Shown piece by piece: positions 34,384 through 40,295 of a DNA stretch of 64,000 nt. Source of the stretch: Streptomyces adustus (lineage in GTDB: Bacteria; Actinomycetota; Actinomycetes; Streptomycetales; Streptomycetaceae); assembly GCF_009377175.1 (NCBI RefSeq), contig NZ_VJZD01000017.1, positions 1 through 64,000 on the forward strand, written 5' to 3'. How positions within the stretch are numbered: position 1 is the first letter of the stretch; each line of letters opens with the position of its first letter. Position numbers and translations under genes: made by a program. Under the pieces are notes generated by a model, which saw only the letters and a program-made list of their open reading frames with translations, had not been told where the DNA came from and searched no databases.

Positions 34384-35130
34384 ATGCGTCGTCGTTCCCC
34401 GCGTCGGCTTCTCGGCGTTCTCGCGGCCTCCGCGGTCGCGTTCACCCTGTTCTCCTCGGCGTCGACGGCCGGCGCGGCCGACGCCGCGACCACCACCGTC
34501 GCCTCCGCGCGGGCGGCCGACGCGGCCGCGCAGCCGCTGTCGACCAGCACCCCGGTCGTGTTCGTCCACGGGTACACCGGCAACGCCTCCAACTGGGTCA
34601 CCGCCATGGCCGTCTTCCAGGCCAACGGCTGGTCCAGCTCCAACCTGTTCGCCTACGAGTACGACTCCTACGGCAACAACATCACCAACGCGCAGGGCCT
34701 GGCGACCTTCGTCAACAACGTGAAGGCGCGCACCGGCGCGAGCAAGGTCGCCATCGTCAACCACTCGATGGGCGGTCTCGTCAGCCAGTACTACCTGAAG
34801 GTGCTGGGCGGCAACACCAGCGTCAGCCACCTCGCCTCGATCGCCGGCGCCAACCACGGGACCACGTACGCCAGTGCCTGTCTGATCTACACGACGTGCC
34901 AGCAGATGTACCCGGGCTCCTCGTTCATCGCCCAGATCACCGCGGGCGACGAGACGCCGGGTGACACCAAGTACGCCACCTGGTACTCGGCGTGCGACGG
35001 CGTCATCATCCCGTACACCAGCACGAAGCTGGACGGCGCGACGAACAACAACGTCGCCTGCCAGACCCACATCGGCTATCTCACCGACACGACCGTGCTC
35101 GGCCAGATCGCCCGCTTCGTCGCCTCCTGA
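34384..35130 (+). CDS. Secreted lipase/esterase (alpha/beta hydrolase)
   Basis: A 248-residue precursor with a signal peptide of about 32 residues. The oxyanion motif VVFVHGYTGNASNW, nucleophile N-H-S-M-G-G (VAIVNHSMGGLVSQYY), D in YSACDGVI, and H in CQTHIGYL give a full triad. Four cysteines form likely disulfides. It matches the short lipase class 2/EstA-type enzymes of Streptomyces and Bacillus. Start ATG 34384 follows GGAGGG. Confidence 0.9.
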   Translation: MRRRSPRRLLGVLAASAVAFTLFSSASTAGAADAATTTVASARAADAAAQPLSTSTPVVFVHGYTGNASNWVTAMAVFQANGWSSSNLFAYEYDSYGNNITNAQGLATFVNNVKARTGASKVAIVNHSMGGLVSQYYLKVLGGNTSVSHLASIAGANHGTTYASACLIYTTCQQMYPGSSFIAQITAGDETPGDTKYATWYSACDGVIIPYTSTKLDGATNNNVACQTHIGYLTDTTVLGQIARFVAS

Positions 35131-36160: not shown

Positions 36161-36341
36161 GCCCCGCGCACCCCCGCGCGCACCGGGCGTCGAGCCGTTC
36201 ACGTTCGGGTGGCCGAAATGCTCTCGCTGCACATGCTTCGTTCTTGATGTCACCATCATCCCGCATCCCTGCGTTCACGAAGGCTTCTCAGACTCTGCAC
36301 GTCCCCAGCGTGTACGCCCTGGTTACCAGCGGGAGTTGAGC

Positions 36342-38051
36342 ATGAGTCACGGCCACAGCCATGACCACGGTCACGGTCACCACCACCATCACCACGACAG
36401 CGGCGAGGCCTCGTCGCTGCCGCCGGCCCTCGACCTGTCGGTCCCGGACGAGGAACTGACCCCCGGCCAGCTCTCCCGGCGCTCCATGCTGCGCCGTACG
36501 GGTCTGCTCGGCGCCGGTCTGGCGGCGGGCAGCGTGCTGGGCGGTGCGGGCCAGGCCGCCGCGGCACCCGGGTCCCTGGCGGCGCACCACGACTCGCACT
36601 CCGGCGGTTACCTGTGGCTCGCCGGTGACCACCACATCCACACCCAGTACAGCTCCGACGCCAAGTACCGGGTCATCGACCACGTCCGCCAGGCGAACGC
36701 GCACGGCCTGGACTGGATGGTCATCACCGACCACGGCAGCGTCGCGCACGCCAAGATCGGTGTGGAGAAGGTCAACCCGGACATCGTCGCGGCCCGTGAC
36801 CAGATCGACGACACGCTCGTCTTCCAGGGGCTGGAGTGGAACATCCCGGCCGCCGAGCACGGCACCGTCTTCGTGCACCCGGGCAAGAACGAGGTCGCGG
36901 TGCTGAAGGAGTTCGAGAACTCCTTCGACGGCAGCGTCAAGGGCGCCTCCGCCAGCTCTCCGGCCAATGAGGCGCTCGCCATCGCGGGCATCAACTTCCT
37001 CGCCGAGCAGGTGCAGCGCCGCAAGGTGAAGGACGTGCTGTTCCTCGCCAACCACCCGGCGCGCAAGGGCATCGACTCCCCGCACGAGATACGCGGCTGG
37101 CGTGACGCGCAGCCGACGATCGCCGTCGGCATGGAGGGCGCCCCCGGTCACCAGGCCGCCGGTCTGCCCGCCCCGCTGGGCGCCGGTTCCGGGCGTGGCA
37201 TCTACGACAACAGCCCGAGCGCCGACTCCTTCGGCGGGTACCCGCTGGAGAGCTACCGCACCTGGGGCGGCTTCGACTGGATGACCTCCACCGTGGGCGG
37301 CCTGTGGGACAGCCTGCTGGCCGAGGGCAAGCCGTGGTGGGTCACGGCGAACTCCGACTCCCACAACGTGTACGCCGACACCGCGGTCCGCGGCCCCAAC
37401 AGCGACTTCAACAACAACGGCCGTTACGAGGACCCGGTCTACGGCGGCACCCTCAACGTCACCGACACCGACTTCTGGCCCGGCCAGTACTCCCGCACGC
37501 ACGTCGGCGCCGCCTCCTTCTCGTACAAGGCGGTCATGGACGGCATCCGGGCCGGCCGGGTGTGGGTGGACCACGGCGGGCTCATCAGCGGCCTGAACGC
37601 CCAGCTGCGCTCCGGAAACCGCGCGGTCACCCTGGGCGGTGCGCTCACCGTGCGCCGCGGCAGCCAGGTCGACCTGGTCGTCGAGATCAGTCTCGCCAAC
37701 GGCCCCAACTGGGCCCAGTTCGTGCCGAAGCTGGCCCGCGTCGACGTCGTCCAGGGCGACGTGACCGGACCGGTCGCCGACAAGGACACGTTCGCCACCC
37801 CGGCCACCAAGGTCGTGAAGTCCTTCGAGGTGAACAAGTCCACCGGCGCGGTGCGTCTCACCTACTCCCTCGGCCGGGTGGACAAGCCGGTGTACGTGCG
37901 GCTGCGCGGCACCGACGGCAACCGGTCCGCGGTCGGCCTGCGCGGCGCGGCCGTCGACCCGGCCGGTCCGGCGATGGACGTCATCGGCGACGCCGACCCG
38001 TGGAAGGACCTGTGGTTCTACTCCAACCCGATGTGGGTCCTGCCCTCATGA
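36342..38051 (+). CDS. Exported PHP-domain metal phosphoesterase with His-rich N-terminus
   Basis: A 569-residue protein. ATG 36342 follows GGGAG. Residues 2-19 carry 11 histidines, an exposed metal-binding tract. A twin-arginine signal follows (SRRSMLRRTGLLGAG, about 46-75). The PHP domain starts with the metal motif DHHIHTQYS and has ITDHGS, FQGLEW and SDSHN further on; these are the clusters that bind two or three metals. A beta-rich C-terminal domain (from about 400) closes the chain. It should be a folded, Tat-exported phosphatase or phosphodiesterase. Substrate unknown. The last codon overlaps the next gene (ATGA). Confidence 0.85.
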   Translation: MSHGHSHDHGHGHHHHHHDSGEASSLPPALDLSVPDEELTPGQLSRRSMLRRTGLLGAGLAAGSVLGGAGQAAAAPGSLAAHHDSHSGGYLWLAGDHHIHTQYSSDAKYRVIDHVRQANAHGLDWMVITDHGSVAHAKIGVEKVNPDIVAARDQIDDTLVFQGLEWNIPAAEHGTVFVHPGKNEVAVLKEFENSFDGSVKGASASSPANEALAIAGINFLAEQVQRRKVKDVLFLANHPARKGIDSPHEIRGWRDAQPTIAVGMEGAPGHQAAGLPAPLGAGSGRGIYDNSPSADSFGGYPLESYRTWGGFDWMTSTVGGLWDSLLAEGKPWWVTANSDSHNVYADTAVRGPNSDFNNNGRYEDPVYGGTLNVTDTDFWPGQYSRTHVGAASFSYKAVMDGIRAGRVWVDHGGLISGLNAQLRSGNRAVTLGGALTVRRGSQVDLVVEISLANGPNWAQFVPKLARVDVVQGDVTGPVADKDTFATPATKVVKSFEVNKSTGAVRLTYSLGRVDKPVYVRLRGTDGNRSAVGLRGAAVDPAGPAMDVIGDADPWKDLWFYSNPMWVLPS

Positions 38052-38671
38052 CATCCCCGCTCGGCGCCGCCGGCGTCCACACCGTCATCGGGGTGGACGC
38101 CGGTTCGGCGAACCTGCGGGAGGCCGATCACCTGATCCACCACCTGGTGGACGGGTTCGGCCTCCCGCGGGGCACCGTCGCCTGCACCCATCTGATCCGC
38201 ACCGACGAGCGCCGCAGCACGGCCGTGTCGCTGGCCCTGCCCGACGCCGGGGCGGCGGAGGTGGCGTGGACGCGGGTCCTCGACTGGGCGGGTCCGGACA
38301 CGGGCGCCGCCTTCGGGGATCGGACGCACGGCTCGGCGCAGGCCGCCGGCGCGGCGCGGCTGGCCGCCGAGGAACACGCCGGGCGCCGCGCCGGGCGGGC
38401 CGTGTCGTACCCCGGCGTCGACGCTCTCGTCGGGACCGTCACCGTGGCCGATCTGCTCGGCCTGAGCGCCGTCGACCGGGTCGTCGTGGTCGGCGCGCCG
38501 TCGGTGGACGGCGCCGGGCCCGACCCGGCCACCGCGGTGCGCACCCGCGACCATGTGCGCCCCGAATGGCGCGACGGCCGGCTCACCCTGGCCCTGGTCC
38601 CGGCCGTCGGCGGTGCGCTCGCCCCGTTCGAGGTGCCCAACCCGACCCCCTGCTGCGCCGATCACGGGTGA
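38048..38671 (+). CDS. Unknown protein coupled to the PHP phosphoesterase
   Basis: A 207-residue, probably cytoplasmic protein without signal peptide. Its ATG overlaps the PHP gene stop by 4 bp, so the two are translated together. It shows VIGVDAGSANLREADHLIHHL near the start, a central A/G/R-rich helix region, and a C-terminal CC pair (PTPCCADHG). I do not recognise the family. Coupling suggests work with the exported phosphoesterase. Confidence 0.7.
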   Translation: MTSPLGAAGVHTVIGVDAGSANLREADHLIHHLVDGFGLPRGTVACTHLIRTDERRSTAVSLALPDAGAAEVAWTRVLDWAGPDTGAAFGDRTHGSAQAAGAARLAAEEHAGRRAGRAVSYPGVDALVGTVTVADLLGLSAVDRVVVVGAPSVDGAGPDPATAVRTRDHVRPEWRDGRLTLALVPAVGGALAPFEVPNPTPCCADHG

Positions 38672-38739: not shown

Positions 38740-40146
38740 TCAGACCGCAAGGGCTCCGGCCGGGTGGCCGTGCTCCCGGCCGCACGCGGTGAGGGCGAGC
38801 ACGCCGCGGCCGGTGACCCGGGTGCGCGCGTCCAGTGCGCCGGGGTCGACCGAGAGCCGGGCCGCGATGTCGGTGGCGTAGCAGGTGTCGGGGATGCCGA
38901 GTTCCTCCTTCACCTGCTCGTACCTGGCCCGGAACGCCTCCGGGTCCGAGGAGGGGACACCGGCGAAGGCGTCGTCGGGAAAGCCGTCCTGGTGGGGCAG
39001 CAGGTAGCCGGCTTCCGCCGGGTGCGCGGGACCTTCGTCGCCGCCCGTCTCGCCGCCGTTCTCACCGTCCTCGTCGCCGCCCTCCTCGGCGTCGAACGCG
39101 TCGTAGTGGCGCACCACTTCCCCGCCCTCGGCGATGCACCAGGCAGTCCAGCCGTCGCCGCAGCTCATTCCGTACCACTGGGCCGCGCCGAAACGGCGGC
39201 TGAGGTCGGCGCAGCGCCGGCGCACCACGTGCTCGAACGCTCCGTCTTCGTCGTCCGCGTCCTCGATGCGATGGGTGTCCTGGGAGGTGTGGCCGAAGAC
39301 CAGCGTCCAGCCGTCCAGCGCCGGGCTGACGAAGACGCGTGCGCAGCACGCATGCGGCCGCTTGCGGTCCCATGCGTGCTGGTCCTGGTTCCAGGCCGAG
39401 GCGCCCGTCCGCAGGGTGACCGGCTCGGGGTCGCCCAGGTCGAACGCCTCGAGTACCGCCGCCTGATCGCCGGTCGGCACCGCGTACCACGATCCGCACA
39501 GGTGCAGGGCCTCCGGGATCTCGGTCAGCCGTTTGATCCTGGTCAGCCGACGCCAGGCGTCCTGGTCCCGGCGGCCGAGGGCGGCCGGTCCGCCGACGGC
39601 CGCCAGCGCCTCCAGGGCACCGGAGCGGATCCGGGGACCGGTCGCGGGCTGCTCCCGCAGGTGCCGCAACGCCGAAAGGGCACCGGCGCCGATCGCCTCG
39701 AAGGCCCACACGGCTCGCTGCCGGACCTTGGGGTCGGGGTCGCCCAGCGAGGGGAGCAGCCGGCCGACGAAGCGCGCCGCGGCCTCGCCCCGGCGCTGGA
39801 AGGCGAACAGCGCGTCACCGCGGACCTCCGGGTGCGGGTGCTTCAACAGCGGTTCGTAGACCGCCGGATCGGCCACGTCCAGCCGTCCCAGGGACCAGCC
39901 CGCCCGCCGGGCCACCTCGGGCGAGTCCGCCGACGCGACGGCCTGCGCCAGCGGAAGGAGCGCGGGCTCCCCGATCCTGCACAGGACGTCCGCCGATATC
40001 GTCCAGTCGACCGGTGACCGCTCGTCGGCCAGCACGTCCACCACGGCCGTGGCCACGGCCGCCCCCTGCCGCACCAGTGCGTCGCGAGCGGGCCGGGTGT
40101 CCTGCCATGACCCCGAGAGCTGTTCGGTCACCTGATCCTTGTCCAT
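38740..40146 (-). CDS. HEAT-repeat protein with C-terminal unknown domain
   Basis: A 468-residue cytoplasmic protein. Residues about 15-190 form HEAT-like helical repeats (for example HPHPEVRGDALFAFQRRG, DPDPKVRQRAVWAFEAIG). Residues about 210-345 are a separate domain (SWYAVPTGDQAAVLEAF, GWTLVFGHTSQDTH, YGMSCGDGWTAWCIAEGGEVVRHY, cut). An acidic G/E/D stretch (about 347-370) follows, then a tail with TCYATDIAARLSVDP. HEAT repeats usually bind proteins. The second domain resembles Streptomyces proteins of unknown function. Its mRNA is probably leaderless (TAGGGT 7 nt before ATG 40146). Confidence 0.8.
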   Translation of the reverse strand: MDKDQVTEQLSGSWQDTRPARDALVRQGAAVATAVVDVLADERSPVDWTISADVLCRIGEPALLPLAQAVASADSPEVARRAGWSLGRLDVADPAVYEPLLKHPHPEVRGDALFAFQRRGEAAARFVGRLLPSLGDPDPKVRQRAVWAFEAIGAGALSALRHLREQPATGPRIRSGALEALAAVGGPAALGRRDQDAWRRLTRIKRLTEIPEALHLCGSWYAVPTGDQAAVLEAFDLGDPEPVTLRTGASAWNQDQHAWDRKRPHACCARVFVSPALDGWTLVFGHTSQDTHRIEDADDEDGAFEHVVRRRCADLSRRFGAAQWYGMSCGDGWTAWCIAEGGEVVRHYDAFDAEEGGDEDGENGGETGGDEGPAHPAEAGYLLPHQDGFPDDAFAGVPSSDPEAFRARYEQVKEELGIPDTCYATDIAARLSVDPGALDARTRVTGRGVLALTACGREHGHPAGALAV

Positions 40147-40153
40147 GCCGGGC

Positions 40154-40159
40154 ACCCTA
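40154..40159 (-). promoter_or_regulatory. -10 box of a leaderless HEAT-repeat mRNA
   Basis: Minus-strand TAGGGT (TANNNT), 7 nt before the ATG at 40146, with no ribosome site between. Confidence 0.5.
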
Positions 40160-40295
40160 ACCGGGCGGACCGACATCGCCTTTCCGGCGCCGACGGCCCG
40201 CCACTACGCCCCGCCCCACCCGGCGCCGCGTCTCCGCCCTGCCGTCGTCCCGGCGTGCGCCGGACGTGGTTCAGAGCCGGGACACCTCGCCCGGG

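Follow-up and report, generated by a model that had tools for sequence, protein, structure and literature searches.

Proteins leave the cell through the Tat system in folded form, in many cases to allow cofactors to be inserted first. To our knowledge, dedicated loading factors for Tat substrates are known mainly for redox enzymes. NapD, TorD and DmsD are maturation proteins that bind Tat signals; each is small and cytoplasmic, its gene lies next to that of a Tat metalloenzyme, and the fold of NapD is ferredoxin-like. HypB, SlyD and UreE carry His-rich tracts that serve as nickel or zinc stores. The fold of PhoD and PhoX is unrelated to PHP. SlyD is described as having a nickel-binding third domain and as binding Tat signal peptides (PMC11198818); PhoD and PhoX are exported by Tat, insertion of iron in the cytoplasm before export having been proposed (PMC4223295), and both are produced by Streptomyces at phosphate limitation (PMC7866108).

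The locus described here lies in a stretch of 64,000 nucleotides from Streptomyces adustus, the whole of which is referred to as the window. A gene for a PHP-family metallohydrolase with a Tat signal is followed by a gene for a small protein, hereafter the partner, and the two appear to form a translationally coupled cassette. The PHP protein shares the PHP domain and a similar fold with the CehA/McbA family (NF038032), BVU_3505 (3e38) and TM0559 (2anu), and with 3e38 also a two-domain layout; we know of no His tract or partner in these relatives. Like NapD, TorD and DmsD, the partner appears to be small and cytoplasmic, with its gene next to that of a predicted Tat metalloenzyme, but it lacks a family match, it has an extra C-terminal half with a CCxxH motif, and its client is not a redox enzyme. 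A His-rich tract is present as in HypB, SlyD and UreE, but it is placed on the client, before the Tat signal, and would be discarded. What the proposed PHP system would have in common with PhoD and PhoX is Tat export together with a metal centre that, as proposed for those enzymes, is filled in the cytoplasm (PMC4223295); on PhoD and PhoX the available portions of the two papers mention neither a His tract nor a dedicated partner (PMC4223295, PMC7866108); the pair fits the cytoplasmic-metal logic of these enzymes, with a dedicated helper added. In the CutF-CutO-CutG operon of Rhodobacter capsulatus, a helper gene likewise serves a metalloenzyme, but CutF is an exported protein that works through control of translation (PMC9973294). 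Open-licence papers yielded nothing on the PHP-partner pair, the partner having no name by which it could be searched.

The two genes and their products

An earlier note on this DNA had described eleven histidines ahead of a twin arginine in the PHP protein, and a 207-residue partner whose gene overlaps the PHP gene by 4 bp. Both descriptions hold (Table 1): the histidines are residues 3, 5, 7, 9, 11 and 13-18, the twin arginine follows at residues 46-47, and the partner ATG at 38048 overlaps the PHP stop codon (38049-38051) as ATGA. The note had also raised a start at a later codon of the PHP gene, which is made unlikely by the ribosome-binding site, the start codons and a conserved peptide. 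GGGAG lies at the right distance from the ATG at 36342; no in-frame ATG, GTG or TTG occurs between codon 1 and M49, which itself sits behind the twin arginine; and the peptide LDxSVPDxELTPxQLSRR is conserved ahead of the twin arginine in the PHP orthologues of a 31-row alignment. This alignment (set A2) comprises the window and 30 of the 40 loci from the partner scan described below; L052, L058, L062, L063 and L064 were removed by thinning, L066 and L081 for broken frames, and L084, L085 and L086 because the PHP gene is missing or partial.

R46 and R47 are invariant in the 31 rows; the signal region reads SRRSMLRRTGLLGAGLAAGSVL followed by GGAGQAAAA, with an AxA-type site near residue 75 after the hydrophobic stretch. 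These features point to export of the PHP protein by Tat. Because the His tract precedes the hydrophobic region, it should stay cytoplasmic or go with signal peptidase cleavage, as the note had proposed.

The note's assignment of the protein to the PHP family was borne out at three levels. It scores 32.7 bits against Pfam PHP, above the cut-off of 26.4; the closest NCBIfam model, NF038032 (CehA/McbA family metallohydrolases), gives 64.3 bits, below its cut-off of 80. The structural model (pLDDT 72.4) matches 3e38 with Z 18.0 over 263 residues (rmsd 6.0) and 2anu with Z 17.4 over 199 residues (rmsd 2.6). H98/H100, H131, E165, H238 and D339/H341 are invariant in the 31 rows, and these we take to be the PHP metal-ligand motifs HxH, (T)DH, E, H and DxH. 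Because of the Pfam score, the modelled fold and the invariant residues at ligand positions, the protein is likely a phosphoesterase.

Table 1. Features of the PHP-partner cassette in the window.
Feature	Position	Strand	Basis
Candidate PhoP operator upstream of PHP gene: GTTCACC-like units every 11 bp, the best being GTTCACG at 36273	36240..36304	+	Orthologous promoters
Ribosome-binding site GGGAG of PHP gene	36331..36335	+	Sequence; many orthologues have a GGAG/GAGG-type site ahead of the His-tract start
PHP-family metallohydrolase with Tat signal, 569 aa	36342..38051	+	Pfam PHP score; PHP fold by model
His tract, residues 3-18, 11 His	36348..36395	+	Sequence; 7-13 His before the twin arginine in 42/42 A-type copies
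Twin arginine, residues 46-47	36477..36482	+	Invariant in 31-row alignment
Hydrophobic part of signal up to AxA-type cleavage site	36483..36566	+	Sequence; cleavage site predicted
PHP catalytic domain, about residues 91-410	36612..37571	+	Alignment, model; invariant H98 H100 H131 E165 H238 D339 H341
C-terminal beta-sandwich, about residues 411-569	37572..38048	+	Model, fold comparison
Partner, 207 aa, no known family	38048..38671	+	Library, profile and genome searches
Half resembling a ferredoxin-like fold, partner residues 12-94	38081..38329	+	AlphaFold2; fold matches Z up to 7.9, common arrangement
Conserved C-terminal tail of partner, PFEVPNPTPCCADH	38624..38665	+	Conservation in 82 distinct sequences

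The partner belongs to no family in the libraries searched, as the note had stated: the protein of the window has no match in Pfam, NCBIfam or PHROGs, and the family profile found no PDB sequence. No Pfam match to a chaperone family (NapD, TorD/DmsD) occurred among 37 partner members (set A1: the window and 36 of the 40 loci, leaving out L056 and L066 for broken frames and the fragments L084 and L086). The only two Pfam matches, both isolated, were FAF in L076, at 17.1 bits against a cut-off of 25, and MlrC_C in one of the 37 members (L055, residues 46-115; E 1.4e-4), at 22.6 bits against a cut-off of 27.2. The latter was absent from the other 35 partners scanned singly and was taken as chance.

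AlphaFold2 modelled the partner at a mean pLDDT of 90.3, with low confidence in the C-terminal tail. Residues 12-94 resemble a ferredoxin-like fold, as in NapD, but this is a very common arrangement and none of the fold matches (Z at most 7.9) was convincing. The N-terminus has no hydrophobic signal. At the C-terminus the pattern PFEVPNPTPCCxxH is near-invariant, with C202 retained in 78, C203 in 77 and H206 in 78 of 82 distinct sequences, counting fragments; this conserved CCxxH tail, as read from the aligned partners, is new here. H28 and C46, considered as strict metal ligands, are neither of them strictly conserved in the same 82 sequences. Both full-length orphan partners found (G461 and a second copy in G196; orphan genes at L155:5562-6209 and L160:2102-2884, with no PHP gene adjacent) keep a CTH motif but no longer have the CCxxH tail. 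A disulfide role towards the client is unlikely because 42 of 43 PHP proteins contain no cysteine, and a metal role is favoured instead. The tail as a translation-arrest peptide acting on a downstream gene was dropped, as no downstream gene is conserved.

Tract and partner across genomes

A scan of genome contigs with the partner as query gave 40 loci, 38 of which have the PHP gene immediately upstream. The same order is found in named genomes ranging from Streptomyces to Frankiales and is thus more than chance, in support of the coupling described in the earlier note. The two exceptions are L084, at a contig edge in a genome with a strong PHP match (1132 bits) near the start of a contig, and L086, a relic gene. 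The latter, from Nonomuraea jiangxiensis (L086:1131-1346), is the C-terminal half of a partner gene with its tail intact, behind unrelated sequence. The two genes overlap by 4 bp in 42 of the 46 loci examined, where the start nearest the PHP stop was chosen, a choice that favours short spacing; the remainder are L080 (1 bp), L083 (genes separated by 4 bp) and two loci whose frames are broken, L066 and L081.

Among 396 phylum-wide genomes, in which the best few candidates per genome were scored under E-value limits and weaker copies may be missed, the same eight genomes carry both the partner and a His-tract PHP, with PHP scores above 1000 bits in six, 834 in G196 and 611 in G336; the partner is missing from four other genomes, whose PHP is a paralogue or a weaker match. 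A survey of 297 Streptomycetaceae genomes with the same limits found 42 A-type PHP copies (at least 850 bits) in 41 genomes, and 42 copies at 600-700 bits. The partner is present in 40 of the 297 and, by coordinates, adjoins 40 of the 42 A-type copies and none of the 42 paralogous or divergent copies. The tract follows the same line. The note had raised its absence from orthologues, whereas every A-type copy carries it (mean 11.3 His before the twin arginine), against 0-4 His in the 42 paralogous or divergent copies of the same genomes. Paralogue rows L200 and L201 were counted from a VTEQQLP start (0 His), and L174 (1 His) was read by eye. Outside the Streptomycetaceae some tracts are shorter, with 4 His in L082, 5 in L077 and L079, and 6 in L075. 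In the paralogues L030 and L033 a His-rich stretch stands instead behind the hydrophobic part of the Tat signal, which places it on the exported side.

In the loci and genomes examined, a PHP lacking the tract never had a partner next to it. A-type PHPs with a tract and no partner occur in G686 and G460, where a decayed partner was sought and none was found; G461 has a partner and no PHP of this family. At L074:2481-6507, from Crossiella, two tandem His-tract PHP genes are followed by a single partner gene.

In a 69-row tree, with L066 and L081 left out, the paralogue clade joins G465, a copy with both tract and partner (support 96/88), inside His-tract lineages, and G544, without tract or partner, forms a separate divergent branch; the midpoint root and the long rows and branches at depth limit how far this tree can be read. 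Because the paralogue clade sits beside G465 within His-tract lineages, tract and partner were probably lost together. Joint loss at least once, and probably twice, would be the simplest account. Over the genomes compared, tract and partner behave as an evolutionary unit, and this is new here.

Promoter and neighbouring genes

The core of Streptomyces PHO boxes has been published as GTTCACC repeated every 11 nt (PMC4415409). GTTCAY occurs within 130 bp upstream of the cassette in 20 of 22 Streptomyces loci (shuffle mean 2.3) and in 7 of 16 other loci (shuffle mean 1.4). Taken in threes, GTTCACC-like units score on average 13.5 at period 11, against 11.8 at other periods, in 22 Streptomyces promoters including that of the window, and 12.9 against 11.7 in 16 promoters from other genera; in a second set of 25 Streptomyces promoters the mean is 13.5 against 12.0, with the 7-bp period higher (14.0). 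The 11-bp period is the best of ten in two of these three sets and is raised in the third, although the units are degenerate except for one and related promoters are not independent. As a positive control, pstS promoters gave 15.2 against 12.3 for the 10 of 20 loci in which a simple pattern found a usable start. The score is not raised in 46 paralogue promoters (11.1 against 11.0). The promoter looks PhoP-like, which is new here, and phosphate starvation probably activates the cassette via PhoP. The element does not define a wide regulon at high stringency, as its 32-bp core (up to three mismatches) occurs once in the genome of the window.

A wider operon was rejected: apart from the PHP gene, and setting aside antisense artefacts of a heuristic gene call, no neighbour is common to more than 5 of the 40 loci. 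In a Frankiales MAG (L083:2788-8192), a PstB-like gene (335 bits; cut-off 343.2) lies just upstream of the cassette, and downstream are an ArsR-family metalloregulator and a CDF cation exporter with a His-rich N-terminus of its own. In the window, a secreted-looking class 2 lipase (Pfam Lipase_2; 34384-35130) lies upstream of the PHP gene and a HEAT-repeat protein (38740-40176, minus strand) just downstream of the partner. At L162:97-3619 and L161:340-4597, a paralogous PHP gene adjoins a second large gene whose product has a similar C-terminus; the neighbour in L162 encodes a protein with a LamG-like (Laminin_G_3) domain that starts with a Tat-like signal.

Proposed maturation before export and its alternatives

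We propose that the PHP enzyme acquires both its fold and its metal ions while still in the cytoplasm and then leaves via Tat. The partner would act on the precursor as a cytoplasmic maturation chaperone whose CCxxH tail delivers or checks the metal, and the tract ahead of the Tat motif would concentrate metal, dock the partner, or both, before being discarded with the signal peptide after use. The partner probably prepares the putative phosphoesterase for export. Metal handling and direct contact between the two proteins would both belong to this scheme. This reading, in which a Tat enzyme made at phosphate starvation is matured in the cytoplasm by a metal-handling chaperone of its own, seems to us about evenly balanced between right and wrong. 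The most detailed form, pre-export metal loading under phosphate control, with a disposable His reservoir borne by the client and a chaperone of a new family whose CCxxH tail delivers or proofreads the metal, is more tentative and falls short of that balance.

Maturation is favoured because tract and partner occur together, the near-invariant CCxxH is lost in the orphans, the client is free of cysteine and the promoter is PHO-like. Also counted in its favour are a tract that varies freely in sequence across orthologues yet remains His-rich, the signal-less N-terminus of the partner, and the phosphate- and metal-related neighbours in L083. Several observations count against it: the partnerless A-type copies in G686 and G460; the first Crossiella tandem copy, without a partner directly behind it; the relic in L086, whose genome has only a distant PHP and none beside the partner; the divergent partner of G336, which ends in CGKDH; the short tracts of L082, L077 and L079; and paralogues that keep a few histidines, namely L203 (4 His) and L115 (HDHDH; outside the 297-genome set). 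The low confidence of the modelled tail, the variable H28 and C46, the degenerate PHO-like units with the higher 7-bp score in one Streptomyces set, and the limits of the tree weigh on the same side.

The best-surviving alternative, itself unlikely, makes the partner a cytoplasmic inhibitor or cap. A flexible CCxxH tail would plug the metal centre of the precursor until Tat export, much as a cysteine switch is a known way of plugging a metal centre, and the tract would be the docking site. The Cys/His-conserved extreme C-terminus, modelled at low confidence and perhaps flexible, fits such a plug, as do its loss from both full-length partners without an adjacent PHP and the cysteine-free client; a Tat substrate is folded, and so possibly active, inside the cell. 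A dangerous enzyme, however, should not tolerate the lack of its cap, and two A-type PHPs exist partnerless. His-rich tracts are more typical of metal handling, and no inhibitor fold was recognised in the fold comparison of the partner. We favour the maturation chaperone, at its even standing, over this doubtful cap.

Rather less probable again is that tract and partner do unrelated jobs, the tract slowing the signal peptide or binding metal accidentally and the partner acting on the substrate pathway. The tract does occur without the partner in G686 and G460, but a rich tract and the partner are jointly absent from all 42 paralogous or divergent copies, and the partner was never seen beside a tract-less PHP. 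Least probable is a small-ligand or metal sensor of PII/CutA-like fold tuning PHP expression or export, to which SbtB, ranked first by Foldseek (E 0.02), and the presence of CutA and SbtB among VIA matches would point, since no Foldseek match fell below E 0.001 in a search that barely probed the C-terminal half, Z stayed below 8, values that the tool rates as common, the matches leave the C-terminal half and tail uncovered, and the PHP gene is the sole constant neighbour of the partner.

The cassette pairs a hydrolase whose own signal region carries an apparent metal reservoir with one almost always linked accessory gene, and natural variants without the tract, the partner or both are at hand. 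It would also bring a PHP enzyme into the group of phosphatases that Streptomyces secretes.
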